Of a stretch of 64,000 bases of DNA, positions 4,552 through 53,856 are shown in pieces. Below the pieces are notes generated by a model. The model saw only the letters and a list, made by a program, of their open reading frames with translations. It was not told the DNA's origin and ran no database searches. A program made the translations under genes and the position numbers. Within the stretch, counting starts at the first letter, position 1; each line of letters starts with the position of its first letter. Source of the DNA: Natronosalvus halobius (GTDB lineage Archaea > Halobacteriota > Halobacteria > Halobacteriales > Natrialbaceae); assembly GCF_024138145.1 (NCBI RefSeq), contig NZ_CP099997.1, forward strand, positions 2,976,001 through 3,040,000, in the 5' to 3' direction.

Positions 4552-4573
4552 TCGAACGCGACTCGCCGTAACC

Positions 4574-5680: not shown

Positions 5681-5720
5681 CCGCGCTCGCGTCCGCACCG
5701 CGCACCGCTCGCGCGGGTGC

Positions 5721-7652: not shown

Positions 7653-7660
7653 GGTTTAAC
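7653..7660 (+). promoter_or_regulatory. TATA box of the TRAM gene
   Basis: GGTTTAAC centred ~26 nt before the ATG at 7683, fitting a leaderless transcript. This supports 7683 as the start rather than the longer open frame from 7368. Confidence 0.5.
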
Positions 7661-7682
7661 GATACCACAGGTACTAGGGTCC

Positions 7683-8180: not shown

Positions 8181-8299
8181 GCGGGCTGCCAGGGTGGACA
8201 GACCCTTCGTAGAGCCGCCGCCACGTATTCTTCGGTCGTCGCTTGCGCACTGCAAACTGCAATAAGACGTAAGTAGACCTGCTGGTATGTCACACGTGA

Positions 8300-10836: not shown

Positions 10837-12110
10837 GCCGCGTTCCCCGCTGGCAGGGTGCGGTCGTCGTCGCCCTCGCGATCTGTCTCCTCGCCGTGGT
10901 GCTGGGGGCGCCCGCACTCTTCGTGGTCGCCGTCGTTCCGCTGGGGTACGTCCTGGTCGGCGTCGCGAGCGGCGCCCCGTCGACCGACATCGCCGTCGAG
11001 CGAACCCTCGACGACGATCGACCGCGGCCCGGCCAGCCGGTTTGCGTGACCCTCTCGGTGACCAACGAGGGCGACCAGGTGCTCCCTGACGTGCGAGTCG
11101 TCGATGCGGTCCCCGAGAACGTGCCGGTGGTCGACGGATCGAGTGCGTTCGCGACCGCAATCCGACCCGGGGAAACCGTCAGCCACGAGTACGTGGTGCT
11201 GCCGCCCCGGGGTCAGTACGCGTTCGGCACGCCCCGCGTTCGCGTCCGGAACCTGGCCGCGAGTGCGCTCGAGACGCTCGAGCCCGACGCTGGGGGCGAC
11301 GGCTCGCTAACCTGCGAGACGCTCCTGGACTCGTTCGCCGTTCGCGACCGGACGATCCGCTTCGTCGGGCGGACGCCGACCGACGAGGGCGGGAGCGGGA
11401 TCGAGTTCTACGCGGCCCGGGAGTACCGCCACGGCGATCCGATCAACCGGATCGACTGGCACCGCCTCGCCCGGACGGGCGATCTCGCGACGATCGAACA
11501 CCGCGAGGAACGCGCCGTCACGATGGTCTTCCTCGTCGACGACCGCGCCGGCGTCCACTGCGAGTCGCGCTCTGGCGGCCCCGACTCGCACGACCTGACG
11601 CTGTACGCCGCCTCGCGCGGCGTGCTCGCCTCCCTCCAGGACGGCAACCGAACCGGGTTCGCGACGCTCGCGGACGACGTGTGGGTCGACCCCGGCGGGG
11701 GCGACGACGTTCGTCGGCGCGTGGACGACGCGGTCGGCGAGTCGGCCGGTGGCGATGGCGCCCCCACCCGCCTCGCCGCCGACGGTGGGACGCTGGCGAC
11801 CGACCTCGAGACGCGCCTCCCTCGCAACGCGCAGGTCGTCCTCTGTAGCCCACTCACGGACGACGCGGCGGTCGACCTGGTCGAACAGCTCCGTCTCCGT
11901 GGACGGACGGTGACCGTCGTGAGCCCGGACATGACGACCAGCGTGTCCGGCGGCGAGCGGTCGTCAGGAACGGCGATCGCCGGCATCGAACGCCGGAATC
12001 GCGTCGACGACCTGCGGGGACTCGGCTCCGTCGTCGTCGACTGGGACCTGGCCGACCCACTGTCGGTCGAGCTGGCCCGGGCGATCCGTGCGATGGGGGG
12101 TGCTCGATGA
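10833..12110 (+). CDS. DUF58 domain-containing protein
   Basis: 425 aa with two N-terminal transmembrane helices (VVVALAICLLAVVLGAPALF region), a conserved beta-rich extracellular part resembling CARDB/DUF11 folds (VCVTLSVTNEGDQVLPDVRV), then the DUF58 core REYRHGDPINRIDWHRLART (about 193-213), followed by a von Willebrand-A-like domain (VTMVFLVDDRAGV). DUF58 proteins usually accompany MoxR AAA+ ATPases as VWA-type partners. No MoxR gene is adjacent here. Start and stop both overlap neighbours (ATGA), so the four genes are translationally coupled. Confidence 0.9.
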   Translation: MSRVPRWQGAVVVALAICLLAVVLGAPALFVVAVVPLGYVLVGVASGAPSTDIAVERTLDDDRPRPGQPVCVTLSVTNEGDQVLPDVRVVDAVPENVPVVDGSSAFATAIRPGETVSHEYVVLPPRGQYAFGTPRVRVRNLAASALETLEPDAGGDGSLTCETLLDSFAVRDRTIRFVGRTPTDEGGSGIEFYAAREYRHGDPINRIDWHRLARTGDLATIEHREERAVTMVFLVDDRAGVHCESRSGGPDSHDLTLYAASRGVLASLQDGNRTGFATLADDVWVDPGGGDDVRRRVDDAVGESAGGDGAPTRLAADGGTLATDLETRLPRNAQVVLCSPLTDDAAVDLVEQLRLRGRTVTVVSPDMTTSVSGGERSSGTAIAGIERRNRVDDLRGLGSVVVDWDLADPLSVELARAIRAMGGAR

Positions 12111-27779: not shown

Positions 27780-29800
27780 TGATCGACATCTCGGTGATCG
27801 ATACGACTATCCGTGCGACCGACCCGGCCGACAACAGCGTCGAACTCGACGTCGTCGGCTGGGATCGCATCGACAATCACTACACCTTCGTCGAACCGGT
27901 CGACGACGTGATCTCTGCTCGTGTATCCGAACTGACGCTGCCAGCGAACTTTCCACTCCTCTCGGAAGTCTTCGCCGACGGTACCTCCCGTCGACGCGCC
28001 GCCATCGACGACGAAAGCCGACTCGATATCGATTCCGGCTCGTACCAGATGTTGATCGAGACGCCGGTCCAGGTGACGATCCGGTTCGACGGCGAGGCCA
28101 CGATCAGGTCCACCGACGGCGAACTCACGATTTCGTTTCCCCACCCACAGCGAGTGAGCGTCGGCTTCACGACCTGGCTCAAACGCCCGCGAGAGACGAT
28201 CACCGTCCCACGAACGCCCGAGGGGATCGCGACGGGACTCTCACACATGTCGGCGTCGATTCGAGCGTCTAATTCGCAAAAAGTCACGGCCATGAACCGA
28301 CCTCACCCGCCGAGAATCCGATACGGTGACTCGCTTGAGGTACCGGATGCCGTTCGCAATCGAACCCCCGAAACCGGAATCGAACTGCGGGTTCCATCCA
28401 GTCTCGAGTACCTGTTTTCTGCCGCCCCGCTCGTCTACTATCTGGGGGCCAGGATTCGCCTCGAACCCGGCGATCCCGTCCTCTCGATCGACGGTACGGA
28501 ACGGTACCGGTTCGAGTCGATGCCGGGGTTCCAGTACCAGTGTGCGTCCCTGCTCAGACGCGTGTTCCTGCTCGACATGCTGGTGCGAAGCGATCAGCAC
28601 ACCGAGACTCCATCCCAGGAACTCGACTTGCTCTCGCTCCTCGAGTTCGATCCCGCTACTTGCGTCGACCTCGAACCGGGCCCCCAGCTCGCGTACTACC
28701 TTGAGGCCGACTTCGAGCGAATCAGCCACGCCCTGCCGGACTGGCACTTCGTCGGCTACGTCGAGCCAACGCTGGATCACGTCGAGGCGATCCCATACCT
28801 GCTCCAGTACCTGGCGACGATCTACCATCCTGCGGCCGTGCCGGGATCGACGTCCGGCGGCGAGGCACATCGACGCTGGCAACGGGCACCCGACACCGTT
28901 CCACGGCGACTCGTCGAGGGCGGTCCTCACGGGAGCGCCGCGGTCTGGATGGCCGACGGCGCGCCGCCGGATCCGACGCTGTTTCGCGCATCGCCGGCGG
29001 GCTTCGTTAACCGGCCCGAGTACGTCGACCGCGCGGAAACCGCCGGAAGCGTCGTCGTCGTCTGCAACGACGCGAGTCGAACCGACGAGTGTGGGGCTGC
29101 CGTGAATCGTTACCGCGCCACCGGCCCCGCAGACATCGACCTCGAGGTTCGCACCGACCTCTCGTGTGCCGACCTGCGCGAGCAATTCGAACGGGGGGCC
29201 GACTTCCTGCACTTCGTCGGCGACTGTCGAGACGGACTGTCGTGTCCAGACGGCACGCTACGACTCGAGACCCTCGACCAATCACACGTTCGGCTCTTCT
29301 TCCTCGACGGGTACGATTCGCTCGAGGCAGGCGAGACCTGCATCGAACGCGGGAGCGTCGGCGGGTTCGTCCGGGGAACGGGCGAACTGAATCCGGCCTA
29401 CCGCGAGCGACTGCTCGGACTGTTTGCCCAGGGACTCACCGTCGACCAGACGGTTCGATACGCCGCTCTCCCTGCCGACGAGCGAGGAGACGTTATCGCA
29501 CTCGGCGACGCCCATCAGCAACTCGCGAGAATGTTGAACCTCTACTGCGTCCCCGCCGTCGTGGAAGCCCGTGACGCGCTCACCTACCAGGTGGAGGCCT
29601 ATCCCTACATTCCCGAGGCTGGCTTCATCTGGCGACCGGGGCCGCTCAATGTCGAACCCCGACTCTGTAGCAATCCGTTCCACGTGACCATGTCGGGGGT
29701 GCAGTTCGAGTCACTGGTCGAGTTCGAGAACTTGCTGCCCATCGAGGGCGACACCGTCTACTGGGACTCGAGTCGGGGCCTGTTCTACCCGCTGTTCTGA
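27779..29800 (+). CDS. Protein with a CHAT-like (caspase-fold) domain lacking the catalytic dyad, coupled to a histidine kinase
   Basis: 673 aa, no signal peptide or membrane helix. Residues ~1-165 look beta-rich; 200-350 contain VPSSLEYLFSAAPLVYYLGA and a helical part (LLRRVFLLDMLVR). Residues ~424-545 follow the CHAT protease order: strand VVVVCND, then ADFLHFVGDC where active CHAT domains have HFxGH, then VRLFFLDGYDS where active ones have LSAC. Both catalytic His and Cys are replaced, so it looks like a pseudo-protease. The remainder (QGLTVDQTVRYA; LARMLNLYCVP) resembles the CHAT tail. The 1-bp TAATG overlap with the kinase implies a common role. I recognise no characterised homologue; the CHAT assignment is from motif spacing only. 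Confidence 0.62.
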   Translation: MIDISVIDTTIRATDPADNSVELDVVGWDRIDNHYTFVEPVDDVISARVSELTLPANFPLLSEVFADGTSRRRAAIDDESRLDIDSGSYQMLIETPVQVTIRFDGEATIRSTDGELTISFPHPQRVSVGFTTWLKRPRETITVPRTPEGIATGLSHMSASIRASNSQKVTAMNRPHPPRIRYGDSLEVPDAVRNRTPETGIELRVPSSLEYLFSAAPLVYYLGARIRLEPGDPVLSIDGTERYRFESMPGFQYQCASLLRRVFLLDMLVRSDQHTETPSQELDLLSLLEFDPATCVDLEPGPQLAYYLEADFERISHALPDWHFVGYVEPTLDHVEAIPYLLQYLATIYHPAAVPGSTSGGEAHRRWQRAPDTVPRRLVEGGPHGSAAVWMADGAPPDPTLFRASPAGFVNRPEYVDRAETAGSVVVVCNDASRTDECGAAVNRYRATGPADIDLEVRTDLSCADLREQFERGADFLHFVGDCRDGLSCPDGTLRLETLDQSHVRLFFLDGYDSLEAGETCIERGSVGGFVRGTGELNPAYRERLLGLFAQGLTVDQTVRYAALPADERGDVIALGDAHQQLARMLNLYCVPAVVEARDALTYQVEAYPYIPEAGFIWRPGPLNVEPRLCSNPFHVTMSGVQFESLVEFENLLPIEGDTVYWDSSRGLFYPLF

Positions 29801-36237: not shown

Positions 36238-37308
36238 TCAGTCGTCGGCCGTCTGCGTATCGAGTCGCTTCACCGGACGGTCGCGAAGCCCTCCGAAGCC
36301 GATGCCGAGCGTCTCGTTCGTTAGCGACCGACTTTCGGGACCCGACAGGTGACCGGAGATTGCACGCAGGGCGTCGACGTTCTCGGGAACGACGTCGGAC
36401 TCCTGGTGGATCGCCTGCATGCAGTAGAGGTCCGAACCCTGGAGGGTGACCGACTCCTCCCAGATGCAGTTCTCCCAGATGTCGCCGCGGGGTCGACCGG
36501 CGTCGGCCGCCATGTCCTTGAGCGTCCCGGCGCCGTCGATGCGGGCGTACTCGGGGACCATGATAGTTCGCTCCTGGGCCGCCAGCAGGTCGCGCACGTC
36601 GTCTTCGCTCGCAGGCGGGTTCTCGAGGGTGACGTTGATGGCGTGGACGTGCATCATCGTCGTCGGCACCTTCAGGCCGATGGTGTCGATGTCGAGTTTC
36701 GGGAAGAGCGTCTGTACGTCGGGGCCGTGGTGGGAGGGGATGGAGACGGGGTCGGGGACGGCGTCGTTGATCGGGCCGCGTCCGGTCTGGTTCGGGTCGC
36801 CGCCGCGTCGAACCAATGTCGCTCGTACCTTCTCGATGCCGTAGGCCTCCTGGAGCGGGGCAACGAGTCGGGAGAGTCCGGTCGTGTTACAGGAGACGAC
36901 GCGGACGTAGTCGGCGTCTTCGGCCTCGTCGTAGTTCACGCGGGCGTTGAAACTCACTTCGGCGACGGTAGCGTCCTCGCCGCCCTGGAAGATCGCGGGC
37001 GTGTCGTGGCGCTCGTAGAGCGAGCGGTTTTCGGCACCGATCCCGGAGGGCGTTGCGTCGACGACGACGTCGCTTTCCTCGACGAGTTCGTCGACGGTGC
37101 CGGCGACGTCGACACCGATCTCACGAAACTCATCGATCCGCGTTTCGTCGACCACGTAGAGGGGGTAGCCGGCCTCGACGGCGCCGATGGCGACGTAATC
37201 AGGACTGACCTTGGCGACGCCACAGAGTTCCATGTCGGGCTGCGCCGTGACGGCGTCCGCGACGCGTTTCCCGATGGTTCCATATCCGTTGATTCCGACG
37301 CGGAGCAT
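36238..37308 (-). CDS. gapII: Type II (archaeal) glyceraldehyde-3-phosphate dehydrogenase
   Basis: 356 aa phosphorylating GAPDH of the archaeal class, expected to work in gluconeogenesis (as reported for GapII of Haloferax). Rossmann start [17 protein letters not shown], catalytic Cys in [15 protein letters not shown] (near residue 141), and [21 protein letters not shown] for phosphate binding. It is divergent from the type I enzyme gapI across 328 bp. Its promoter has ATTATA at 37335-37340 and a TACTC-N6-GAGT site further upstream, the position expected for activation by a TrmB-type regulator. Confidence 0.95.
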
Positions 37309-37334
37309 ACGAGGTCCACTCCACCGGCGACGGG

Positions 37335-37340
37335 TATAAT
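37335..37340 (-). promoter_or_regulatory. TATA box of gapII
   Basis: Minus-strand ATTATA, 29 nt from the gapII ATG, implying a leaderless mRNA. Confidence 0.6.
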
Positions 37341-37365
37341 TGTTTCGGACAGACTGATAGATGTT

Positions 37366-37381
37366 AACTCGTAATTGAGTA
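37366..37381 (-). promoter_or_regulatory. Candidate TrmB-type operator upstream of the gapII TATA box
   Basis: Minus strand reads TACTCAATTACGAGTT: inverted ACTC/GAGT arms with a 6-bp spacer, matching the TACT-N7-8-GAGTA motif recalled for Halobacterium TrmB except for the last base. It lies ~30 bp upstream of the TATA box, the activating position. Confidence 0.5.
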
Positions 37382-37605
37382 CTCTAGCGAATAATCGACG
37401 TACAGCATCGGGTTGGTAACGACACTCACAGCCGAACACATATCTTTTAATTTTTTCATAAATGGGGTTTAGCCACTCCGATATCGACCCTCCAGCACGT
37501 CGATCCCGTGTGATAGAACGCTCGAAAACTCCTGGTGTTAATTACGCTCTGCCTGTTCGTATCGATCCCGAGGTACGTTGGACGGTGTCGAGGGCCAGGG
37601 CAACT

Positions 37606-37613
37606 ACTTTAAC
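37606..37613 (+). promoter_or_regulatory. TATA box of gapI
   Basis: ACTTTAAC centred 28 nt before the gapI ATG, consistent with a transcript starting at or near the start codon. Confidence 0.55.
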
Positions 37614-37627
37614 CCTGGATAGCTTAG

Positions 37628-37643
37628 TACTCAGATATGAGTG
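37628..37643 (+). promoter_or_regulatory. Candidate TrmB-type operator overlapping the gapI transcription/translation start
   Basis: TACTCAGATATGAGTG has the same ACTC-N6-GAGT architecture as the gapII site but sits downstream of the TATA box and over the ATG, a repressing position. Confidence 0.5.
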
Positions 37644-38704
37644 AACATTCATTCGCCGAAGACACTTCCACGGACGGCGTGGTTCGCGTCGGCCTCAACG
37701 GATTTGGCCGAATCGGTCGGAACGTCCTGCGCGCATCCCTCGAGTACGACGGGATCGAAATCGTCGCCATCAACGACGTGATGGACAACGACGACATGGA
37801 GTACCTGCTCCGGTACGACTCCGTCCACGGTCGACTCGACGTCGTCGAGCGCGACGATGACACCCTATTCGTCGGTGACCAGGAGATTCGACTGCTCAAC
37901 GAGCGCGACCCCACCGAGTTGCCGTGGGAGGAGTTCGACGTCGACGTCGCCTTCGAGGCGACCGGCCTATTTCGTTCCCACGACGACGCTGCCATGCACA
38001 TCGAGGCCGGCGCCGACAAGGTCATCATCTCCGCACCCCCGAAGGGCGAGAAGGACGTCTCGATGTTCGTCTACGGTGTCAACCACGACGAGTACGAGGG
38101 CGAGGACATCCTCTCGAACGCCTCCTGTACCACGAACAGCGTCGCCCCCGTCGCCAAGGTACTCGACGAGGAGTTCGGCATCGCCTCGGGCCTGCTCACC
38201 ACGGTCCACGCCTACACCGGCACGCAGTCGCTCGTCGACGGCCCCGAATCGAAGCGCCGCCGCGGTCGCGCCGCCGCCGAGAATATCATCCCCACGACGA
38301 CCGGCGCCGCCATCGCCACGACCGAAGTCCTCCCCGAACTCGAGGGGAAACTCGACGGCATGGCGATTCGCGTCCCCGTCCCCAACGGCTCGATCACCGA
38401 CCTGACGGTCGATCTCGAGGCCGACGTCACCAGGGAGGACCTCGAGGCCGCCATCCGCGAAGCCGCCGACGGCGACCTCGCCGGCGTGCTCGGCTACACC
38501 GACGAGGAAATCGTCTCCCGGGACATCGTCGGCCTCCCGTTCTCCTCGTACGTCGACCTCGAGTCCGCGATGGTGCTCGAGGACGGTCTCGTGAAGATCC
38601 TCACGTGGTACGACAACGAGTACGGCTTCTCGAACCGCATGCTCGACCTCGCGACGTACGTGATCGCCGAGGACGAGGCTGAAGCGGAAGCCCCGACGCA
38701 GTAG
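37637..38704 (+). CDS. gapI: Type I (bacterial-type) glyceraldehyde-3-phosphate dehydrogenase
   Basis: 355 aa. Class I GAPDH, expected to act in the lower glycolytic / semi-phosphorylative Entner-Doudoroff direction in haloarchaea. Motifs: VGLNGFGRIGRNVLRASL (NAD loop), SNASCTTNSVAPVAKV with the catalytic Cys near 158, RRGRAAAENIIPTTTGAA for phosphate, and WYDNEYGFSNRMLDL at the end. The N-terminal ~13 residues (SEHSFAEDTSTDG) extend beyond most homologues. 88 bp upstream of pgk, on the same strand. Confidence 0.95.
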   Translation: MSEHSFAEDTSTDGVVRVGLNGFGRIGRNVLRASLEYDGIEIVAINDVMDNDDMEYLLRYDSVHGRLDVVERDDDTLFVGDQEIRLLNERDPTELPWEEFDVDVAFEATGLFRSHDDAAMHIEAGADKVIISAPPKGEKDVSMFVYGVNHDEYEGEDILSNASCTTNSVAPVAKVLDEEFGIASGLLTTVHAYTGTQSLVDGPESKRRRGRAAAENIIPTTTGAAIATTEVLPELEGKLDGMAIRVPVPNGSITDLTVDLEADVTREDLEAAIREAADGDLAGVLGYTDEEIVSRDIVGLPFSSYVDLESAMVLEDGLVKILTWYDNEYGFSNRMLDLATYVIAEDEAEAEAPTQ

Positions 38705-38792
38705 CCCCACTCGAGTCGTCGTTCGCGACGGTCCGGACGAAACACCTGGTAATTCCGTCCCTTTTAAGCGATCGCGTGACGCGCGTACGGAT

Positions 38793-39998
38793 ATGTTCGA
38801 CACCATCGACGACATCGAACCCGGCCAACGACTGCTCGTCCGCGTCGACCTCAACGCGCCCGTCCAGGACGGCCGTGCCCAGGACAACCGTCGCTTCGCT
38901 CGCCACGCCGACTCGATTCGCGCGCTGCTCGAGGACGACCACGCCGTCGCCATCATGGCTCACCAGGGCCGACCCGGTCGGGACACGTTCATCTCCCTCG
39001 AGAGTCACGCCGAAATCCTCGCCGGCCACCTCGACCGACCCGTCGACTTCGTCGCCGACACCTACGGCGAGGCGGCCCTCGAGGCCATCGACGACCTCGA
39101 GGCCGGCGACGTCCTGGTGCTCGAGAACGTCCGTATGTGCGAAGACGAACTCCCCGAGAAGGACCCCGAGGAACACGCCGACAGCGAGTTCGTACGAACC
39201 CTCGCCCCGCACTTCGACGCCTACGTCAACGACGCCTACTCGGCGGCCCACCGCGCCCACGCCTCTCTCGTCGGCTTCCCCCTCGTGATGGACGCCTACG
39301 CGGGGCCGGTGATGGACGCCGAGTACACCGCCAACTCCGCCATCCAGGACCGCGAGTTCGACGGCCCCGTGACGATGGTACTGGGCGGAACCAAGGCCGA
39401 GGACCTCATCCCGGTCATCGAGCAGGTCGACGAGACGGTCGACCGCTTCTGCCTGGGTGGCATCGTCGGCGAGCTCTTCCTCCGGGCGGCCGGCCACGAC
39501 GTGGGTTACGACGTCGACGGCACCGAGTTCTTCGACCACCAGTGGGGCGACCAGGCTGACACCATCGAGCGCATCCTCGAGACCTACGGCGACCGACTCA
39601 CCCTCGCGACGGACCTCGCTTACGAAGGCGACGACGGTGACCGCGCCGAAACCGACGTCGAGGGTCTCGAGAAGAACACCTCCTACCTCGACGTGGGCAG
39701 CGACACCGCCGACACGTACGCCGACCTCGTCCAGGACTCCGAGGCGGTCTTCGTGAAGGGCGCACTGGGCGTCTTCGAGGACGAGCGCTTCGCGGACGGG
39801 ACCGTCGAGATCCTCGGGGCCATCGCCGAAACCGACTGCTTCTCGGTCGTCGGCGGCGGCGACACCTCACGGGCTATCGAACTGTACGGGCTCGACGAGG
39901 CCGACTTCTCTCACGTCTCCATCGCGGGCGGCGCCTACGTTCGGGCGCTCACGGGTGACACGCTGGTCGGCGTCGAGGTGCTCGAGCGGGAGGCCTGA
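38793..39998 (+). CDS. pgk: Phosphoglycerate kinase
   Basis: 401 aa. Transfers phosphate between 1,3-bisphosphoglycerate and ADP, the step next to GAPDH. N-terminal substrate domain has LLVRVDLNAPVQDGR (family RVDxNVP), HQGRPGRDTF, LENVRMCEDELPEKD and FVNDAYSAAHRAH-like AYVNDAYSAAHRAH. C-terminal nucleotide domain has VLGGTKAEDLIPVIE and VVGGGDTSRAIE. Codirectional with gapI with a separate short spacer containing a TTTTAA-like element, so it may have its own promoter as well as read-through. Confidence 0.95.
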   Translation: MFDTIDDIEPGQRLLVRVDLNAPVQDGRAQDNRRFARHADSIRALLEDDHAVAIMAHQGRPGRDTFISLESHAEILAGHLDRPVDFVADTYGEAALEAIDDLEAGDVLVLENVRMCEDELPEKDPEEHADSEFVRTLAPHFDAYVNDAYSAAHRAHASLVGFPLVMDAYAGPVMDAEYTANSAIQDREFDGPVTMVLGGTKAEDLIPVIEQVDETVDRFCLGGIVGELFLRAAGHDVGYDVDGTEFFDHQWGDQADTIERILETYGDRLTLATDLAYEGDDGDRAETDVEGLEKNTSYLDVGSDTADTYADLVQDSEAVFVKGALGVFEDERFADGTVEILGAIAETDCFSVVGGGDTSRAIELYGLDEADFSHVSIAGGAYVRALTGDTLVGVEVLEREA

Positions 39999-40120
39999 TA
40001 CTGTACTCCGACCGAGGACACCGCTTGTACCCGACCAGCACCGCCTGGACTCGCCGATACCACCTGGACTCGACCGACGACACCGGCACCGCTCGAGTCA
40101 CCGAATCACCCGTCCCAGAG

Positions 40121-41000
40121 TCAATCGGACTCGACGGGATCACCCTCGTTTCCAGTGGCCGTCGGCTCCTCGAGCGACCCCCGTTCACCGGTGGCGGGTT
40201 CGGCAATCGTACGCCCGAAACGACACTTGCTGACCCGTACCCGCGGATCGGTTCCTACGACACCACCACGATTCGGCGACGAGACCTCGAACACTACGTC
40301 CGATACCTGTACCGTCAGCCGCCGGTTCCGTGGCTCGTGGCCGTCACACAGACCGTACAGGACGACCACGCTCTCTGTCTCGACCACTCGTTCGGCCACC
40401 GACGAGAGAAACTCTCGATAGACTCGTCAATCCGCCCGCTCGAGGGCATCCACGACGTCGACGATCACCGTCGCCCCCTCCGGTAGCTTCTCCAGTAACT
40501 CGAGGACCCGGTCCAGGTCGTCCTCGGTATGCTCGCCCATAAGCGATCGAATCGTTGGCGTCCCCGTCCGCCGGGGCGTCCGCCGAATCGCCCGCTCGAG
40601 TTGCGCCTTCGAACGATCGGTTACGATGTACAGCGTGCCGCGAACGGCCGTAACTCCGTAGAGGAGGTGTTCGACCTGGCTCGCGGGTGGCGCCATCAGC
40701 GTCACGATCGATCCGGCCGGAACGCCACCGCCGAGCGCACGGTCGACCCCGTCGACGCCGAAGGAGAGTCGTCCACGGTCGGCATTTCCGGCGGTCGTCA
40801 ACCCGAATCGCTCGAATCGGTCGACGACGCGGTCGAACGCGTCGGTGGCAGCATCTGCGGTCAGCGGCGAGGACGCCTCCACCTCGGGAATGGCCCCCAG
40901 CGCTTCGACGCCGAGACGGGCCTCGAGCCCCGACGGAACGGCGTCACACCGGGTGCAGACAATGCCCAGAATCGGAACGCCGAGTCGGCGAGCGACGGGG
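40121..41000 (-). pseudogene. Remnant of a MinD-like/RAD55-like (RecA-superfamily) ATPase gene: 5' truncated and with an in-frame stop
   Basis: Minus-strand homology runs from about 41000 to the TGA at 40121. The first part (ARRLGVPILGIVCTRCDAV, then LGAIPEV) resembles the C-terminal end of MinD-type ATPases. The next part is a RecA/RAD55-like domain: RLSFGVDGVDRALGGGVPAGS, VTLMAPPASQVEHLLYGV, EGATVIVDVVDALERAD. There an in-frame TGA (40427-40429) interrupts the gene, and homology resumes in the same frame: RVYREFLSSVAERVVET, VVVLYGLCDGHEPRNRRL, VSDVVFEV. No MinD N-terminus with a P-loop precedes it; the same DNA encodes another gene's end on the plus strand. Family naming is from recalled patterns. 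Confidence 0.6.
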
Positions 41001-41392
41001 ATCCCCTCGAGGTCCGGGACGAGGACGGTCGCCTCGTCGCGACGGGCGTTCTGTGCGGGGTCGACGGCCCTACCGCGACGATCCTCGTCGAGGCCAGTGT
41101 GGCGGCGGATATCGAGGACGAGCACCGCTACCGGCTCGCGATCCGGGCTGCGAACTCCGACGACGGACGAGAACTGGTTCGGCAGATCCAGCGCGCGCCA
41201 GAGACAATTTCGACGCGAACGGTCGAGCCCGGGAACGACCTCGAAGGCGAGTTCGTCGAGTGGGTTCCGGGAACCGTCCTGGTGATCGAACGCGACGACG
41301 GCCTCCACCCGTTCCCGGCGGGCCGCGAACCGATTCGCGCAGGCGACCGGATTCACGCCTTTGGCGCGCCTGACGAACTGGCGGCGCTGTGA
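41000..41392 (+). pseudogene. Remnant of a TrkA-C-domain protein gene (5' truncated)
   Basis: From about 41000 the plus strand encodes a convincing C-terminal TrkA-C-type regulatory domain: LEVRDEDGRLVATGVLCGVDG, a strand-rich middle, then LEGEFVEWVPGTVLVIER and REPIRAGDRIHAFGAPDELAAL (compare GDxLLVxGxxexL in the family). Such domains gate K+ channels or transporters. The frame is open to 40529, but upstream residues are Arg/Pro-rich antisense of the RAD55-like remnant, and no in-frame start codon lies near the domain boundary. It ends 51 bp before srp54. Confidence 0.58.
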
Positions 41393-41411
41393 CTGCGGCC
41401 AACGGACAAGG

Positions 41412-41419
41412 CTTTAACC
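41412..41419 (+). promoter_or_regulatory. TATA box of srp54
   Basis: CTTTAACC centred ~29 nt before ATG 41444 and ~23 nt before ATG 41438, favouring the second as a leaderless start. Confidence 0.5.
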
Positions 41420-41443
41420 GCATCGTCGCCTATCGGCATGCAA

Positions 41444-42835
41444 ATGGTACTCGACGATCTCGGAAGTTCCCTCCGAGGCACCCTCGACAAACTCCGCGGC
41501 AAGTCACGCATCTCCGAGGAGGACGTCGAGGAGGTCGTCAAGGAGATTCAGCGGTCGTTGCTGTCGGCCGACGTCGACGTCTCCCTCGTGATGGAGCTCT
41601 CGGACAACATCAAGACCCGCGCGCTCGAGGAGGAGCCGCCAGCGGGAACGCCCGCCCGCGATTTCGTCCTCCGCATCGTCTACGAGGAACTGGTTGATCT
41701 CATCGGCGAGTCGACCGACCTGCCCCTCGAGGAACAGACCATCCTGCTGGCGGGGCTCCAGGGGTCGGGGAAGACGACTACGTCCGCGAAGATGGCGTGG
41801 TGGTTCTCGACGAAGGGGCTCCGGCCCGCCGTGATCCAGACCGACACGTTCCGGCCCGGTGCCTACGAGCAGGCCAAAGAGATGTGCCGCCGCGCGGAGG
41901 TCGACTTCTACGGCGACCCCGACGGCGACGACCCGGTCCAGATCGCCCGCGACGGCCTCGAGGCGACGAGTGAGGCCGACGTTCACATCGTCGACACGGC
42001 AGGTCGCCACGCCCTGGAGGACGATCTGATCGACGAAATCGAGGACATCGAGGACGTGGTCGACCCCGACGTCGGCCTGCTGGTGCTCGACGCCGCGATC
42101 GGTCAGGGGGCGAAAGACCAGGCCCAGCAGTTCGACGAGTCTGTGGGCATCGACGGCGTCGTCATCACCAAACTCGACGGAACGGCGAAGGGTGGTGGCG
42201 CCCTGACGGCGGTCGACCAGACGGACTCCTCCATCGCCTTTCTCGGGACCGGCGAGGAGGTCCAGGACATCGAGCGCTTCGAACCCAACGGGTTTATCTC
42301 CCGACTTCTGGGGATGGGCGACCTCGCCCAGCTCGCCGAGCGCGTCGAGCGCGCGATGGAACATACCGGCGAGGAGGAAGACGACTGGGACCCCGAGGAC
42401 ATGCTCGAGGGACAGTTCACGCTGAAGGACATGCAAAAGCAGATGGAGGCGATGAACAACATGGGCCCCCTCGATCAGGTGCTCGACATGATCCCCGGCT
42501 TCGGCGGCGGGATCAAGGACCAGTTGCCCGACGACGCGATGGACGTCACCCAGGATCGGATGCGGACCTTCGAGGTAATCATGGATTCGATGACCGACGC
42601 CGAGAAGGAGTACCCGCGGGCGATCGGCGCCGATCAGATTCGCCGGATTGCTCGCGGTTCCGGGACCTCGGAGGAGAGCGTTCGGGAACTCCTCCAGCAG
42701 TTCAAGATGATGGAACGGACCCTCAAGCAGTTCCAGGGAATGGGATCGGACAAGGAGATGCAACGGATGATGCAGCAGATGCAACAGCAGGGTGGCGGCG
42801 GCATGGGCGGTATGGGTGGCGGCGGCCCGTTCTGA
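41444..42835 (+). CDS. srp54: Signal recognition particle 54 kDa protein
   Basis: 463 aa GTPase (Ffh/SRP54) that binds signal peptides and 7S RNA and docks to FtsY. N domain: [21 protein letters not shown] domain: P-loop [17 protein letters not shown] (near 107), [28 protein letters not shown], and [14 protein letters not shown] domain from about 300 with [19 protein letters not shown] and the RNA-binding [19 protein letters not shown]. It ends in a Met/Gln/Gly-rich tail. ATG 41438 would add two residues (MQ); 41444 fits the family and TATA spacing. Confidence 0.97.
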
Positions 42836-42991
42836 GAAGCCAGTTGCGGTCTCTCGAGGACGGCTGGTTCGGCTCTCTCGGTGACGCGATCGTCCCCTTC
42901 ATTCGCTCGTTGAGTCGGATTCCACTCCTGTCGCTCCCTGTTATCGAGTCCACTCTCGAAATTCGTCGTCAAAACGCGATTCGAGGCCGTT

Positions 42992-43906
42992 TCAGGCAAT
43001 CTTCCCGTACTGGTCGGTGAGCTTTTCGGCGGCCTCTCCCAGCTGTTCGCGCTCGTAGGCCGAGAGGTCCCACTCGACGACCTCTTCGACGCCGTTCGAG
43101 CCGAGTTTCGCGGGGACGCCGAAGGCGGTGTCCTCGTGGCCGAACTCGCCCTCGAGGACGACGCTGGCGGGCAGCACTTCGCCGGTGTCACGGAGGACGG
43201 CCTCGACCATGTGAGCGACGCCGGCGGCGGGCCCCCACTCGGTGGCGCCTTTCTTCTCGATGACGTTCATCGCAGAGGTCTGAAGTTCGTTCAGGATCTC
43301 TTCCTTCTCGTCGTCCGAGAACGAGTGATCCTCGCCGTCGACGCGCACTTTCGAGAACACGGGAACCTGTGCGTCGCCGTGTTCGCCGAGAATCGTCGCC
43401 TGGACGTTCTGGACGGGGACGTCGTAGCGCTGGGAGAGGACGTACCGGAACCGGGCGGAGTCGAGGCGGCCGCCGAAGCCGATCACTTGCTCCCGGCTTC
43501 GATCCCCCGTCTCGTAGAGGTGCCGGTTCAGCAGGTCGACCGGGTTCGATGTGGTGATCGTCACGAAATCGTCGTTGTGTTCGGCGAGCGAGGAGCCGAT
43601 GTCCTCCATGATCGGGGCGTTGTCGCCCGCGAGGTCGATCCGGGTCTGGCCGGGCTGGCGGGGGATGCCGGCCGTGATGACGACGACGTCCGATCCCGCG
43701 GTGTCCTCGTAACCGCCCTGGCGGACGACCGTGTTCGAATCGTAGGCGACGCCGTGGTTGACGTCGGCCGCCTGGCCGACCGTGTCGTCTTCCTTGTCCG
43801 GAATGTCGACGAAGACGAGTTCGTCAGCGATCCCACGCAGTGCGATGTTGTAGCCCGCTGCAGCCCCGACGGTGCCGGCCGCGCCGACCACGCTCACTTT
43901 TGTCAT
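42992..43906 (-). CDS. mdh: Malate dehydrogenase (LDH-like)
   Basis: 304 aa, TCA-cycle enzyme oxidising malate to oxaloacetate. Start [21 protein letters not shown] is the dinucleotide loop, followed by [11 protein letters not shown], whose acidic residue favours NAD. The substrate loop [18 protein letters not shown] has Arg at the specificity position (LDHs carry Gln there), and catalytic His is in [14 protein letters not shown]. It closely resembles the tetrameric halophilic MDH of Haloarcula. Convergent with srp54. Confidence 0.96.
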
Positions 43907-44064
43907 ACCACGTTCCTCGTCACCTGCCAGGGCGTTAAATCCGTCGGAAAGACGGGTTCGAGAAGCCGTCCAGGCGGCCGAACTCCGTGGGCGGACACGC
44001 TTCGAGTCGCTGGCATTCGTCGGGAACCGAACCAGCCTTGGTCGCTCGAACCCCTCCCTCGAGT

Positions 44065-44988
44065 ATGCGCGTCAGCGTCATCGGCGGCGGGTCGATCACG
44101 GACGAGGAGACCGAACGGGCGGTCACGGTCGGTCGCGAACTGGGCCGGCGCGGCCACGCGGTCGTCTGCGGCGGCCGCGGCGGAACGATGGAGGCGGTCT
44201 GTCGCGGCGCGAGCGAGGTCGGCGGCGAAACCATCGGCATCCTCCCCTCGAGCGAGCGCGCGGATGCGAATCCCTTCGTCGAGACGGTTATCGCGACCGG
44301 AATGGGCCACGCCCGGAACGCGCTCGTCCCGCTGAACGGCGACGCGCTTGTCGCACTTTCCGGCGGCCCTGGAACGCTCTCGGAGATCGGCTTTGCCCTC
44401 GTATACGGTCGCCCGGTCGTCGGTCTCGAAACCCACGACGTTCCCGGCGTCGAGACCGTCGAGACGCCGACTGCGGCCGTCGACGCGGTCGAACGAGCGG
44501 TGCTCGGTGAGACGACCGGCGCGGCAGCCGAGGGGGCTGAAGGGGCCGAGTGGGTCGAGGGGCTCGAAGCCGGCCTCCCGGGGCCGTACACCCTCATTCC
44601 CCGGCCGCCGAACCCCGAAGCGTTAGTCGCCCTCCGGGAGGCCGCGGACATGGCCCCGCGATCGCTCGAGGCCGTCGAGCGCGGCCTCGCGAATTCGGTG
44701 TTCGCGGTGCACGTGATCCACGACCCCTCGGGCGAACCGGTCGGCATGGGTCGCATCGTCGGCGACGATGGGGCAGTTTATCACATTTCAGACATGGCCG
44801 TCCACCCCGATCACCAGGGGCGGGGGCTGGGCACGCACATTATGAACCGACTGTGGGCTTACATCGAGGGGACGGCGCCCGAGTCAGCGTACGTCAACCT
44901 GCTGGCCGACGTCGACGGGTTCTACGAGCGGTTCGGTTTCGAGGAGACCCGGCCGGCCTCGAAGGGAATGTATCGCCGAGTGGAGTGA
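44065..44988 (+). CDS. LOG-family (TIGR00725-like) / GNAT acetyltransferase fusion
   Basis: 307 aa with two domains. Residues 1-~155 are a LOG/lysine-decarboxylase-like Rossmann domain: [75 protein letters not shown]. After an Ala/Glu/Gly linker, residues ~175-307 form a GNAT domain: [40 protein letters not shown], acetyl-CoA motif [12 protein letters not shown], ending [20 protein letters not shown]. Elsewhere in haloarchaea I know these as separate proteins. LOG-like proteins act on nucleotide monophosphates or bind nucleotides; the role here is unknown. Start 44065 is the ATG at the first strand. Confidence 0.85.
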
Positions 44989-45063
44989 GCGGGCAAGGCG
45001 ACTCGGCTTCGAATCCGGTGCCAGTCCGTAGCTTTTTGGACGTTTGGCCCCCACACACCGGAT

Positions 45064-45762
45064 ATGAGCGACTTCGATAAGGAAGCCGAACGCGAGAAGC
45101 TTCGAAAGAAGTACGAGCGCGACGAGGCCGACCGCGAGGCGACCCAGCGGATGAGCGACCTCCTGCTCAAGGGGGCCACGATGACCAACACCCACTGCGA
45201 CGTCTGCGGTGATCCCCTCTTTCGCTACCAGGGGACTACGTTCTGCCCGAGCTGTCACGGCGGGCCAGAGGGCGTTGAAGCGTCGGTCGACCACGGTGCA
45301 AGCGACGAGAACCGCGCCACGACAGCGGGGTCGACTGGAGGGACGAGCGTGAACGAACACCCCTCGAGCGAGGTACCTGCCGAGGAGACGGGAGGCGCGA
45401 ACGACCCCGAGCACGCGGCCTCGAGCGTCGACGCTGGCGACGCAGACCGATCGGACGCGACGCCTGAAACCCGTGCCACTTCCAGCACGGTGAACGAGGG
45501 GCCAGGACCGGGGGGCCCTCGCGAGACGGCCGACACCCCCGAAACCGCCGAAACCAGTCGAGCGCCGTCGGCCGTCTCGTCAAGCGGTCCTGGGTCGGGT
45601 ATCGACGTCGGCAACGACCTCGAGGCCGGAACCGACGCACTCGTGACTGCGCTCGAGCGATTCTCGCGGGCGGCCGCCGAGGCCGACGACCCACGGTACG
45701 CGAAGGCGTGCCTCGAGGCGGCCCACGAGGCGGCGGCGACGCTGGCGACGCTTCGCGAGTAG
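45064..45762 (+). CDS. Autoantigen p27-family zinc-ribbon protein (UPF0148-like)
   Basis: 232 aa. Starts with a charged helix (DFDKEAEREKLRKKYERDEADRE), then RMSDLLLKGATMTNTHCDVCGDPLFRYQGTTFCPSCHGG with two CxxC knuckles (about 45-48 and 61-64), the Sjogren's/scleroderma autoantigen 1 signature. A ~110-residue disordered acidic stretch follows, then a C-terminal helical piece (ALVTALERFSRAAAEADDP; ACLEAAHEAAATLATL). Archaeal members have no known function. TATA-like GCTTTTTGG lies ~29 nt before the start. GDPD follows after 45 bp. Confidence 0.87.
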   Translation: MSDFDKEAEREKLRKKYERDEADREATQRMSDLLLKGATMTNTHCDVCGDPLFRYQGTTFCPSCHGGPEGVEASVDHGASDENRATTAGSTGGTSVNEHPSSEVPAEETGGANDPEHAASSVDAGDADRSDATPETRATSSTVNEGPGPGGPRETADTPETAETSRAPSAVSSSGPGSGIDVGNDLEAGTDALVTALERFSRAAAEADDPRYAKACLEAAHEAAATLATLRE

Positions 45763-45807
45763 TTCGGACTCGGAACCTACAACACGTCTCCGGCCATCCT
45801 GCCAGCC

Positions 45808-46632
45808 ATGCCCGAGCCAGCGGTCATCGCTCACCGCGGATTCGCCGGCGTCGCCCCCGAGAACACGATCGAGGCGGCACGAGTCGCCAGCGAGCACCCC
45901 TCGACGGACATGATCGAGATCGACGTCCAGGCCGCCGCCTGCGGAACGCCGGTCGTGATTCACGACGACCGACTCGAGGGGACCCGCGACGGGCGTCCGC
46001 TCACCGATTCCGAGGGGCTGGTGTGGGAACAGACTCTCGAAGCCCTCTCGAACGCTCGCGTCCTGGAGACGGACGAGGCGGTCCCGACCCTCGAGGCATT
46101 CCTCGAGGCCGTCGGCCCCGGCGTCGGCGTCAACGTCGAACTCAAGAATCCGGGGACGCCGTCGATCCGTCCGGCGGAGTTGCTGTCGTCGAGTGTGCAC
46201 GACGGACGCCGAGAGATCTGGGAGCCGTTCGTCGAGCGCGTCGTCGATGTCTGTGACGGCTTCGCCGGCGATGTGCTCTTCTCGTCGTTCTGTGTCGGTG
46301 CGCTCGCGGCTACCCGGAACGTGGCACCCGAGTATCCCATCGGCGCGCTCGTCGAAGACGACCTCGAGATGGGCCTCGAGATCGCCCGCGAATACGACTG
46401 CGAGGCGATTCATCCGCCGCGAAATGCGATCGCCGGGACGGTGCTGCCGACGGATTCGACGGGTTCGAGGGACTCGAGGACCCTGCCGACGGCCGACCTG
46501 CTCGACGTCGCTCGCGACGAGGGACGAGCGATCAACGTCTGGACGGTCGACACCTGGATCCAGTTCGACCAGTTGCGATCGGTCGGTGTCGACGGGATCA
46601 TCGTGGATTATCCGGGCCTCGACTCGCGGTGA
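45808..46632 (+). CDS. Glycerophosphodiester phosphodiesterase family protein
   Basis: 274 aa TIM-barrel GDPD. Catalytic motifs: VIAHRGFAGVAPENTIEA (residues 6-23, His-Arg and Glu), IEIDVQAAACGTPVVIHDDRLEGTRDG (metal Glu/Asp and second His), NVELKNPG (~113), and the C-terminal INVWTVDTWIQFDQL with VDGIIVDYPGL. Hydrolyses glycerophosphodiesters to glycerol-3-phosphate and an alcohol; in haloarchaea the physiological substrate may be ether-lipid headgroup-derived. No signal peptide seen, so cytoplasmic. Confidence 0.9.
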   Translation: MPEPAVIAHRGFAGVAPENTIEAARVASEHPSTDMIEIDVQAAACGTPVVIHDDRLEGTRDGRPLTDSEGLVWEQTLEALSNARVLETDEAVPTLEAFLEAVGPGVGVNVELKNPGTPSIRPAELLSSSVHDGRREIWEPFVERVVDVCDGFAGDVLFSSFCVGALAATRNVAPEYPIGALVEDDLEMGLEIAREYDCEAIHPPRNAIAGTVLPTDSTGSRDSRTLPTADLLDVARDEGRAINVWTVDTWIQFDQLRSVGVDGIIVDYPGLDSR

Positions 46633-46731
46633 GCGGACGCTCGGGCGTTCGTACCGGACCGGTTTCTGCGGCGCTCGGGCACTCGAGCGTTCGTACGGCC
46701 GGTTGCTGGACAGTTTCTGGGCGCCCGTACG

Positions 46732-47241
46732 CTACTCGAGTCCCAGCGTCTCCTCGAGAGCGTCGTAGTCGGGGAACTCGGGCCACTCGGTGGCGACCCA
46801 CGACCCCGTCACCGTGAGGTCGGCATCGACGGCGAAGAAAGCGACTCGCGGCTCGCCGAGGCCGGCCATGCCGTCCAGGTCGTGGGCGATTCCGTAGTCT
46901 TCGGCGACGTCGTTGCCCGGATCGGCGGCGATCTCGAACGGCAGATCACGCTCCTCGAGGAAGCCGGCGATGCCGTAGGGGTTCGCAGCGGAGACGCCGA
47001 CGACGCGGGCGCGTTCGTCCCACTCACGCTCGGCGAGTTCCGTCCAGACGTACTGGGCGACGAACGAGCCGATCATTGGGGTGAACACGACGACTGCACC
47101 ACCCTCCTCGGCCGCGAGGTCGGACAGCGACCGATCCTCCCAGAACTCACTCGAGACGAACGGTCGGGTGAAGCCCGGCGCTGCCGTTCCCGTTTCGGGG
47201 TGATCGGCCGGGCCGAGGTCGACGACGTCGAAGTCGACCAC
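46732..47241 (-). CDS. Redoxin-domain (peroxiredoxin-like) protein without cysteine
   Basis: 169 aa, GTG start at 47241 sharing one base with the glutaredoxin stop codon (TAGTG arrangement), so translation is coupled. The AhpC/TSA fold is clear (GTAAPGFTRPFVSSEFWED; VVGVSAANPYGIAGFLEERDLPFEIAADPG; EDYGIAHDLDG), but where peroxiredoxins have the peroxidatic Cys (PxxxTxxC) it reads VFTPMIGSFVAQYVWTEL, and the protein has no cysteine at all. It cannot be a thiol peroxidase. I recall Cys-less relatives in other haloarchaea. A partner or structural role with the adjoining glutaredoxin is possible. Confidence 0.82.
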   Translation of the reverse strand: MVDFDVVDLGPADHPETGTAAPGFTRPFVSSEFWEDRSLSDLAAEEGGAVVVFTPMIGSFVAQYVWTELAEREWDERARVVGVSAANPYGIAGFLEERDLPFEIAADPGNDVAEDYGIAHDLDGMAGLGEPRVAFFAVDADLTVTGSWVATEWPEFPDYDALEETLGLE

Positions 47242-47555
47242 TAGTCGTCACCCCGGCTTTCCACAGCGCCTGCAGCGTCTACAGTCCCTCCAGCGCCGTC
47301 ACTGTAAACCGAATCCAGGTAGTCGACGATGTTCGCACTCTCGGCCATCGTGACTCCGGTTTCCTCGTCGACGAGGACGGGAACCGACCGGACCCCGGCC
47401 TCGCGCTTGACCGCGTTCCGGCGCGAGTGCATCGGTTCGACGAAGCGCGATCGGTACTCGAGGCCGTATGTCTGCAGTCGGGAGACGACTCGTTCGCAGT
47501 AGGGACACCCTTGCAGTCGGTACAGCGTTCGCGGCGAGTCGGTCGGAGTTGACAT
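47241..47555 (-). CDS. Glutaredoxin / GST N-terminal-type thiol protein
   Basis: 104 aa thioredoxin-fold protein with active-site GCPYCERVVSRL (CPYC near residues 17-20), the cis-Pro loop RSVPVLVDEETG, and ESANIVDYLDSVY, as in glutaredoxins and GST N-terminal domains. Haloarchaea use gamma-glutamylcysteine, a likely reductant. The frame extends to ATG 47600, but MSTPTDSPRTLYRLQGC (47555) is the natural start. A low-complexity Gly/Ala tail ends it. Overlaps the redoxin gene by 1 bp. Confidence 0.87.
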   Translation of the reverse strand: MSTPTDSPRTLYRLQGCPYCERVVSRLQTYGLEYRSRFVEPMHSRRNAVKREAGVRSVPVLVDEETGVTMAESANIVDYLDSVYSDGAGGTVDAAGAVESRGDD

Positions 47556-47645
47556 AGCTCCCGATTGGGAGACGAGTGCAAAAACGGTGTCGGGGCTCAA
47601 AAGGGTAAAACGTTAATCAGTCCGGTGATAACACACAGGGAGTTA

Positions 47646-49130
47646 ATGGTGTATTCGCTGTTCGAAGCGGTCGTGTTCGCGTACACGGTCCCAGGACTGG
47701 GGCTGGAGATAGACGAATCGATCGTGACGATCCTCGGTGGGATCACCGTGATCTTGCTCATCGGGGTCTCCGCCTTCTTCTCCTCATCGGAGATCGCGAT
47801 GTTCTCCCTGCCGAAACACCGCGTCGAGGGGATGGTCGAGGAGGGCGTCCCCGGTGCGGAACGGGTACAAGCGCTCAAATCCGATCCACACCGCCTCCTC
47901 GTAACTATTCTGGTCGGCAACAACGTGGCCAACATCGCCATGTCGTCCATCGCAACCGCTGTCCTGTCCATCCACTTCGGCGGCCTCGTGGGCGTGTTGA
48001 TCGCGACTTTCGGCATCACCGCCATCGTCCTCCTGTTCGGGGAAAGCGCTCCCAAGTCCTACGCCGTCGAGCACACCGAAACCTGGTCCGTTCGGACGGC
48101 GAAACCGCTCAAGGCGACCGAGTACTTGCTCTACCCGCTCGTCGTCCTCTTCGACTACCTCACCCGCCAGATCAACCGCCTGACCGGCTCGGCGACCGGC
48201 GCTATCGAGACGCCCTACGTCACCCGCGACGAGATCCAGGAGATGATCGAATCCGGCGAGCGCGAGGGCGTCTTAGAGGAGGAAGAACACGAGATGCTTA
48301 CCCGCATCTTCCGGTTCAACAACACCATCGTCAAGGAGGTGATGACGCCCAGACTCGACATGACGGCCGTGCCGCGAGATGCCGGCATCGACGAGGCAAT
48401 CGAGACGAGCATCCAGAGTGGTCACGCCCGGATCCCGGTCTACGAGGGTAGCCTGGACAACGTCCAGGGGGTCGTCCACATCCGGGACCTCGTCCGGGAT
48501 CTGAACTACGGCGAGTCGACGGATCTCACGATGGACGACGTTATTCGTCCGACGCTGCACGTGCCGGAGTCGAAGAACGTCGACGAACTGCTGGGTGAGA
48601 TGCGCGAAAACCGGATGCATATGGCCATCGTCATCGACGAGTTCGGCACCACGGAGGGGCTGGTGACGATGGAGGACATGGTCGAGGAGATCGTCGGCGA
48701 GATCCTCGAGGGCGGCGAGGAGGAACCGGTCGAGGAGGTCGACGAGGACACCGTCGTCGTCCGCGGCGAGGTCAACATCGAGGAGGTCAACGAGGCCCTC
48801 GGCATCGAACTTCCGGAGGGCGAGGAGTTCGAGACCATCGCGGGGTTCATCTTCAACCGTGCCGGGCGCCTGGTGGAGGAGGGCGAAACCATCATGTACG
48901 ACGAGGACGGCGGCGTCGAGATCACCGTCGAAGAGGTCGAAAACACCCGGATCATGAAGGCCCGACTCGAGAAACTGGGCCTCGAGGATGACGAAGAAGC
49001 GGCCGATATGGACGGGGACGAGCCTCGTGACGATAGCGACGGTGGCGATGGAAGCGGGAACAGAGGCGGGAACGGGAACGGAGACGAGAACGCGGACACG
49101 GACGAGAGCGTACCGATCGAAGACGAGTGA
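47646..49130 (+). CDS. CNNM/CorC-family membrane protein (hemolysin-like, DUF21-CBS-CorC)
   Basis: 494 aa. N-terminal DUF21 region with about four hydrophobic segments (GGITVILLIGVSAFFSSSEIAMFSLPKHR; LVTILVGNNVANIAMSSI; IATFGITAIVLLFGESAPK). Then a CBS pair (IVKEVMTPRLDMTAVPRD; VIRPTLHVPESKNVDEL; MAIVIDEFGTTEGLVTMEDMVEEIVGEI) and the C-terminal transporter-associated CorC_HlyC domain (GEVNIEEVNEALGIELP). CNNM relatives export or regulate Mg2+ and related cations. The tail is Gly/Asn/Asp-rich and disordered. ATG 47646 has a GGGAG upstream and TATA-like ACGTTAAT ~32 nt before it; the longer frame lacks support. Confidence 0.9.
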   Translation: MVYSLFEAVVFAYTVPGLGLEIDESIVTILGGITVILLIGVSAFFSSSEIAMFSLPKHRVEGMVEEGVPGAERVQALKSDPHRLLVTILVGNNVANIAMSSIATAVLSIHFGGLVGVLIATFGITAIVLLFGESAPKSYAVEHTETWSVRTAKPLKATEYLLYPLVVLFDYLTRQINRLTGSATGAIETPYVTRDEIQEMIESGEREGVLEEEEHEMLTRIFRFNNTIVKEVMTPRLDMTAVPRDAGIDEAIETSIQSGHARIPVYEGSLDNVQGVVHIRDLVRDLNYGESTDLTMDDVIRPTLHVPESKNVDELLGEMRENRMHMAIVIDEFGTTEGLVTMEDMVEEIVGEILEGGEEEPVEEVDEDTVVVRGEVNIEEVNEALGIELPEGEEFETIAGFIFNRAGRLVEEGETIMYDEDGGVEITVEEVENTRIMKARLEKLGLEDDEEAADMDGDEPRDDSDGGDGSGNRGGNGNGDENADTDESVPIEDE

Positions 49131-52257: not shown

Positions 52258-52311
52258 TCGGTCGAACGGTCCTATGCCCTGCTCGGTTATAAACTTCGTC
52301 GCCGTCGCCTG

Positions 52312-53856
52312 CTACCCGACCCTCGAGATCAGGGCGGTCGGCACCCCGGTGGGGGCGGGTGACGCCCGATCGAGGCTCGAACTGGCCGTCACAGCCGCCC
52401 GATCGGCCGGTCGTATCGCCTCGAGGTCGCCGACCGTCGGCGCCCCGACCAGCTCGACGCGGGTGTCGTCGACCTCTATTCGATAGGCGCCGGCGAAGGG
52501 CTCGTCGTCGCCAATTCGGTACGTTTCGCCCGTCCCGTTCCCCGCGACCGCCTCCGCACCCCGGTTCTCGAGTACGCGCTCGTAAGCGCTGGCGAAGCGG
52601 TCGGCGGCCGCAGGCGTTCGGAACTCGAGGGCCCAGACGTGTCCGGTGGCTCCGATCTCGTCGTCGGTCGAACCACCGTCCGTCGCCTCGTAGGCGACGA
52701 ACGTGTCGCCAGCCCACCCCGCAGTGGCGGGATGTGAGTAGTTGTACGGCGATAACTCGCTTCCCTCCTCGAGCAGCGAGTGGTCCAGGACGCCGTTGGC
52801 CCACAGCGCTCCAAAGAGGGTTGCCTCGCCGACAGTCTCGGTTCGGGTTTCGCCGTTGTCGTCGGTGATCGGCGACCACGCGGGGCTCGAGCGATCGTCG
52901 ACCGCGAGGTCGACCGGCCGGTCGTCGGGGTAGCGCTCGGGGTGGACGAGCTGGCTGGTGCTCGTCGGTCGATTGGTGAACGCAGCGTCGACGGCATCCC
53001 AGCCGCCGGCGTCGTAGATCGATTGGACGAACGTCGGTCCCTCGGCGTACGGCGCGTAGATCGAGAGGTAGAGCCCGACGTTCAGCGACCGGCTCGTTTC
53101 GCCGGCGTCGTCACCGTCCGATGGCTCGCCGCCGCTCTTCGACCCGCCGTCTCCCTCGAGCCCACCGTCGCTCGTTTCGGGGAGACACTCCCACGCTGGA
53201 TCGTCGCGACACCGCTGCTCGTAGCGGTGGGCGAGCAACGTCGCCTCGCCTTCGATGAGGCCGTTTTCCGCGCGGCGCGCGTCGACGGTCGTTCCCCGGC
53301 GCTCGAGGCCGAACTGCTGGTCCTGGAGGGCGTGGGCGAGTTCGTGGACGAGCGTGGTGCGATCGATCTGGAGACGGTCGGCGTCGGGGTCGTCGGTGAC
53401 GACGACGATTCGATCGTCGACGTAGAAGCCCAGCACAGAATCGCCGTAGAGCGAGTCGAACGCCGCGTTGACGTCGGTCTCGCCGTCGACGACGAACGCG
53501 GCGCGCCAGAGTTCGTTCGTGAACGCATCCGCGGGCTCGCTCTCGCCGTACCACTCGCGAAGTTCCTCGCGGGACCACACCTCGACCTCGACGTTCTCAG
53601 TGTAGCGAAGCCCGCGAATTTCCTCGAGGCGGGCCATCGCGCGGTAGGTGACGGCCTCGAGTTCGGCCGGGCTCAATCGCGCGGGATCGTCGACGTCGAG
53701 CGTGCTCGTCGCGTTGTAGCCGTAGATCGTTCCGAGGTCGCGCTCGGCGGAGGCGGGCGCGTCGCTCGGCGCCGTCAAGGGGGCTGCACAACCGGCGAGG
53801 ACGACGAGGAGGGTGAGGCCGACGGTAACGAGAACGAAGTGGCCGCGCGTTCGCAT
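52312..53856 (-). CDS. Hvo_1808-family surface protein, lipoprotein form with HExxH motif
   Basis: 514 aa. Signal sequence with lipobox LTLLVVLAGCAAPLT (Cys about residue 23). The mature part has an M61/gluzincin-like metal motif RTTLVHELAHALQDQQFGLE (near 165-185) and a downstream Glu region NGLIEGEATLLAHRYEQRC. Then FVQSIYDAGGWDAVDAAF and HVWALEFRTPAAADRFASAYE, shared with the next protein. An intervening stretch is Ser/Gly/Asp-rich. Family members are annotated as surface proteins; proteolytic activity is inferred only from HExxH plus Glu. Adjacent paralogue upstream (37-bp gap), probable operon. Confidence 0.85.
   Translation of the reverse strand: MRTRGHFVLVTVGLTLLVVLAGCAAPLTAPSDAPASAERDLGTIYGYNATSTLDVDDPARLSPAELEAVTYRAMARLEEIRGLRYTENVEVEVWSREELREWYGESEPADAFTNELWRAAFVVDGETDVNAAFDSLYGDSVLGFYVDDRIVVVTDDPDADRLQIDRTTLVHELAHALQDQQFGLERRGTTVDARRAENGLIEGEATLLAHRYEQRCRDDPAWECLPETSDGGLEGDGGSKSGGEPSDGDDAGETSRSLNVGLYLSIYAPYAEGPTFVQSIYDAGGWDAVDAAFTNRPTSTSQLVHPERYPDDRPVDLAVDDRSSPAWSPITDDNGETRTETVGEATLFGALWANGVLDHSLLEEGSELSPYNYSHPATAGWAGDTFVAYEATDGGSTDDEIGATGHVWALEFRTPAAADRFASAYERVLENRGAEAVAGNGTGETYRIGDDEPFAGAYRIEVDDTRVELVGAPTVGDLEAIRPADRAAVTASSSLDRASPAPTGVPTALISRVG

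Follow-up and report, generated by a model that had tools for sequence, protein, structure and literature searches.

Two long open reading frames overlap on opposite strands between two conserved genes on the chromosome of Natronosalvus halobius, one of them in line with an in-frame stop, and the question is whether they are genes in their own right or the remains of genes, and if so what was removed between them. The window analysed here is a 64,000-nucleotide stretch (C1:2976001-3040000) of a 3.85-Mb assembly in three contigs (G000), and the comparison within the genus covered eight genomes, G000 and the congeners G001-G007. The minus-strand frame occupies 40427-41356 (309 aa) and the plus-strand frame 40529-41392 (287 aa). 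Both neighbours are intact: on the left lies a plus-strand gene at 38793-39998, which we take to be pgk, as did the preliminary description and as its sequence suggests, and on the right a plus-strand gene at 41438-42835, presumably srp54, the name used in the same description. That description had proposed two divergent genes truncated head to head by a deletion, with homology fading near 41,000 on both strands and each frame extended beyond that point by the mere antisense of the other gene.

Two truncated genes and one junction

Both open frames are present in the window, and in both the homology ends within 40986-40997, close to the position first suggested. On the minus strand, 40430-40997 encodes the end of a MinD-like domain and the start of a DUF7125 domain up to a TGA codon at 40427-40429 (ERAD*RVYREF in the minus frame), and the same frame continues past this stop through 40121-40426 to the original stop codon. 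DUF7125 (PF23442) matches before the TGA at profile positions 3-112 (97.2 bits) and after it at 117-188 (31.2 bits, 1.5e-7, cut-off 29.1); given that the match runs in order on both sides of the stop, this is one interrupted gene, as had been read from the letters. In the codon alignment the position of the TGA is CGA in both G002 and G007, in agreement with the proposed CGA-to-TGA change, and the preceding codon is GAT in G000 versus GGT in the other two. As read from the assembled sequence alone, the stop appears to be specific to G000 among the three close relatives. The N-terminal P-loop domain of a MinD/ParA ATPase is absent from the window remnant, whereas the G007 homologue carries it (KGGCGKTT; PF01656, 8e-12).

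The plus-strand remnant, 40986-41392, corresponds to about residues 241-375 of a 375-residue membrane protein, and its stop lies 45 bp from the srp54 start, the same spacing as in G007. The TrkA-C homology claimed for this frame exists but is weak, at 17.9 bits against a curated cut-off of 27 for PF02080, and the intact G007 protein has no match in Pfam at E 0.01; hence we describe the product as a membrane protein whose tail is weakly TrkA-C-like. A search of the intact protein against the PDB at E 1 likewise gave no match. Beyond the boundary each frame is antisense read-through, as suspected: 40529-40985 lengthens the plus-strand frame outside the membrane-protein gene, and 40998-41356 lengthens the minus-strand frame outside the ATPase gene. 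A deletion thus accounts for two misleading overlapping frames.

The intact arrangement is found in G007, which carries both genes between pgk and srp54 and aligns cleanly at the DNA level on both sides of a single junction. Window 37307-40997 corresponds to G007 L062 1-3714 at 91.2% identity and window 40986-47756 to L062 13138-20000 at 89.2%, and the two alignments overlap in the 12-bp word CGGCGAGCGACG at 40986-40997. In G007 the word stands at both breakpoints (L062 3703-3714 and 13138-13149), with its copies 9,435 bp apart, so 9,435 bp were removed and one copy of the word was kept. Random pairs of breakpoints in the two genes overlap by at least 12 bp at a frequency of about 1e-5 (300,000 draws), a value computed post hoc with the junction already known; two further clusters of 12-14-bp words are common to both genes. 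No natural gene start lies at the boundary, given that both remnants have longer homologues in relatives that run through it, which also rules out short homologues naturally beginning at this point. In the gap between pgk and the ATPase remnant (40026-40084), a smaller difference was seen: a 19-bp stretch of G007 (17 bp in G002) is missing from G000 and adjoins a tandem repeat with a 19-bp period at 40040-40084.

From these alignments we are highly confident that a single 9,435-bp deletion between the two 12-bp words took out a type IV pilus-like locus and brought the tails of the two outer genes together. The explanation first offered therefore holds in outline, with two amendments. The two divergent genes were not neighbours: in G007 they stand on opposite strands with about 9.4 kb and seven genes between them. 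The loss of N-terminal parts is confirmed, but these were not halves, given that the ATPase lost 172 of 465 residues and the membrane protein 240 of 375.

Relocation of the segment by inversion or translocation could be considered since the flanks are rearranged in other congeners (G001 and G003-G006), where srp54 is either distant from pgk or on a different contig. However, a search of the whole G000 genome with the 9.7-kb G007 segment returned five matches, of which two are its edges (94% and 92%) and three are weak (52-87 bp, 74-81%). The missing DNA was not found elsewhere by this search, which argues for a deletion over a translocation and effectively rules out a move of the segment; we give that reading next to no weight. 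An assembly or sequencing artefact, which the presence of the exact junction in only one genome might suggest, is only marginally less remote. The site is far from the ends of contig C1, a false join over 12 bp is implausible, and two congeners also have no such locus; in the whole G000 assembly the PilB orthologue is absent, and only three distant paralogues (25-32%) were found.

The deleted locus as read in G007

The gene content of the deleted stretch was read in G007, with coordinates on L062. Seven genes lie on the minus strand in the following order of transcription: a HerA-like gene (9992-11107; DUF87, 8.7e-7), a DUF7310 coiled-coil gene (9216-9908; 4.5e-25), a DUF7311 gene whose product has a hydrophobic N-terminus (8758-9219; 1.8e-45), a PilB-like ATPase gene (6780-8765), a PilC-like gene (5062-6777), a DUF7283 gene with one hydrophobic segment in its product (4314-4946; 2.8e-48) and the MinD-DUF7125 ATPase gene (2832-4229, 465 aa). 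The plus strand carries two membrane paralogues; the first ends at 12420, and the second occupies 12417-13544. The ATPase is 86% identical to the minus-strand remnant and the second membrane protein 89% identical to the plus-strand remnant. The deletion thus took seven whole genes (DUF7283, PilC-like, PilB-like, DUF7311, DUF7310 coiled coil, HerA-like and the first membrane paralogue), the first 172 residues of the MinD-DUF7125 ATPase, including the P-loop, and the first 240 residues of the second membrane protein, including its hydrophobic segments.

The PilB-like protein is a secretion ATPase of the VirB11/PilB type (T2SSE, PF00437, 1.5e-20; best PDB match 2oap, 3.8e-30) with an N-terminus that is cysteine-rich by eye. 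The adjoining PilC-like protein has seven predicted hydrophobic segments, and its T2SSF match is weak (E 0.0038; 17.6 bits, below the cut-off of 25.2). No major pilin was identified among the G007 genes of the deleted locus. In its ATPase with cysteines near the N-terminus, its putative TadC/PilC-like membrane protein, its coiled-coil protein and its MinD-family ATPase, the locus resembles archaeal type IV pilus systems as set out in passages of Makarova et al. 2016 (PMC4858521), in which neither the HerA-like gene nor either of the membrane paralogues figures. Subclade 4F of that review is a lead for the identity of what was deleted, suggested by the coiled-coil protein and by the cysteines near the N-terminus of the ATPase.

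Related losses and the age of the deletion

PilB orthologues (68% identity or more) occur in five of the eight genomes (G001, G004, G005, G006 and G007, that of G006 being partial at a contig edge) and are absent from G000, G002 and G003. A single TGA in the G001 PilB raised the idea of decay in that gene and was set aside as a probable gene-end effect, given that several other genomes look the same and their open frames are mostly longer than the match.

The three losses have different endpoints. G002 is truncated further than G000: its ATPase remnant comprises only about the last 114 codons, its membrane-protein remnant starts about 24 codons later, and its flanks join at positions equivalent to 40467 and about 41060 of the window, where some four bases match neither side well. 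In both G000 and G002 the membrane-protein tail remains in frame. G003 retains an almost complete membrane protein, and its own loss of the pilus locus left behind an in-frame chimera at L065 5410-6318, in which a HerA-like fragment (residues 182-313) is followed by DUF7125. Because the intact G007 groups with G000 and G002 to the exclusion of G003 (support 100%), the loss in G003 is independent.

Other insertions and deletions were seen elsewhere in the window. About 3 kb present in G002 and G007 is missing from G000 at window 52304-52403 and holds cydA and cydB, which encode subunits I and II of a cytochrome bd oxidase (Pfam 1e-142 and 8e-74); cydA has no match anywhere in the G000 genome in a search that matches in G002 and G007. 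Conversely, G000 has window 25786-29243 but G002 does not, and the gap in G002 connects the tandem frames 25368-27779 and 27779-29800 close to a shared GTCCAG word. This is another deletion, in G002, and it possibly fused the two genes.

Whether G000 and G002 lost the locus separately bears on the timing of the deletion, not on its occurrence. The three close relatives differ pairwise by 5.4-6.2% in aligned genes. One deletion in a common ancestor of G000 and G002, with another ~590 bp then lost in G002 across that junction, would fit a concatenated tree that groups the two (bootstrap 98, with conflicting site patterns of 83:46:63) and the position of the G000 junction inside the stretch missing from G002. 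Against it stand the differences in the remnants common to both, 34 nonsynonymous and 31 synonymous over 223 codons (110 of the membrane protein and 113 of the ATPase). Under no constraint since the split, 69-73% of the differences would be nonsynonymous, and 34 or fewer would then have a probability of 0.0004 to 0.004; in G001 and G005, which are both intact, the corresponding tails show 47%. By branch, the nonsynonymous to synonymous ratios are 20:14.5 for G000, 14:16.5 for G002 and a similar 15.5:12 for the intact G007. We therefore regard a shared deletion as possible but unlikely. Separate deletions in G000 and G002, both after most of the divergence, are the reading that we moderately favour from these substitution patterns, in which the counts are small.

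The remnants show no clear sign of relaxed selection compared with intact copies: dN/dS between the G000 and G002 remnants is 0.30-0.45 compared with 0.15-0.34 for intact pairs, a control gene at window 36238-37308 having been left out because it is misaligned in G007, and a comparison of remnants with intact copies for relaxed selection finds dN/dS indistinguishable (Fisher P 0.56), with one in-frame stop. This suggests that the G000 deletion is probably young compared with the divergence of G000 from G002 and G007. As proof of pseudogene status dN/dS was set aside, because intact copies give similar values.

Purifying selection on the remnants would yield the same ratio of nonsynonymous to synonymous differences, and the low dN/dS, like the tail kept in frame in both G000 and G002, would also fit short functional genes under selection with promoters of their own. 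That reading is highly improbable: the ATPase remnant of G000 carries the TGA, the P-loop domain and the membrane segments are gone, G002 has lost more of both genes, and dN/dS is similar in intact genes, the pattern that a recent deletion would leave. Both remnants are instead likely to be non-functional, as the deletion would have taken their promoters and left an ATPase lacking its P-loop and interrupted by a stop, and a membrane protein lacking its membrane segments.

Mechanism and meaning of the losses

Deletion between short direct repeats with retention of a single copy is what microhomology-mediated end joining or slippage would be expected to produce, and the deletion in G000 may well have been made by microhomology repair, through end joining or replication slippage. 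Passages of PMC7776575 report that Haloferax volcanii, which has no Ku, repairs breaks by microhomology-mediated end joining. The G000 deletion shares with the events described there a short direct repeat of which one copy is kept, but it is natural and was seen by comparing species. Like pseudogenes derived from deletions, the G000 remnants have truncated 5' ends and one premature stop; the difference is that a single event truncated two genes head to head and left their frames largely open.

Across the family, a PilB match with an E-value of 1e-60 or lower was found in 70 of 125 genomes, a count that includes a group at 49-55% identity, possibly belonging to another system. Judged by these matches, patchy presence of the pilus-like locus appears to be common in the family. 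Part or all of a MinD-DUF7125 ATPase was also seen in three genomes outside the 70 (G023 C1:543410-544006, G090 C38:31931-33136 and G127 C171:4111-5355), possibly further remnants or divergent systems. A literature search on pilB loss in haloarchaea gave nothing on this locus among the matches listed.

The scar is clear, but it records ordinary gene loss, and its mild interest lies in recurrence. It is rather doubtful that the locus beside pgk has been lost repeatedly in the genus because loss was favoured, for example by viruses using the pilus, and any cause of this kind, such as virus attack through the pilus, is speculation. What the junction does provide is a base-pair-level view of a whole pilus-type locus vanishing from a haloarchaeal chromosome, and with losses at differing endpoints in three of eight congeners, the genus offers a small natural series on whether such a pilus is dispensable or counter-selected.
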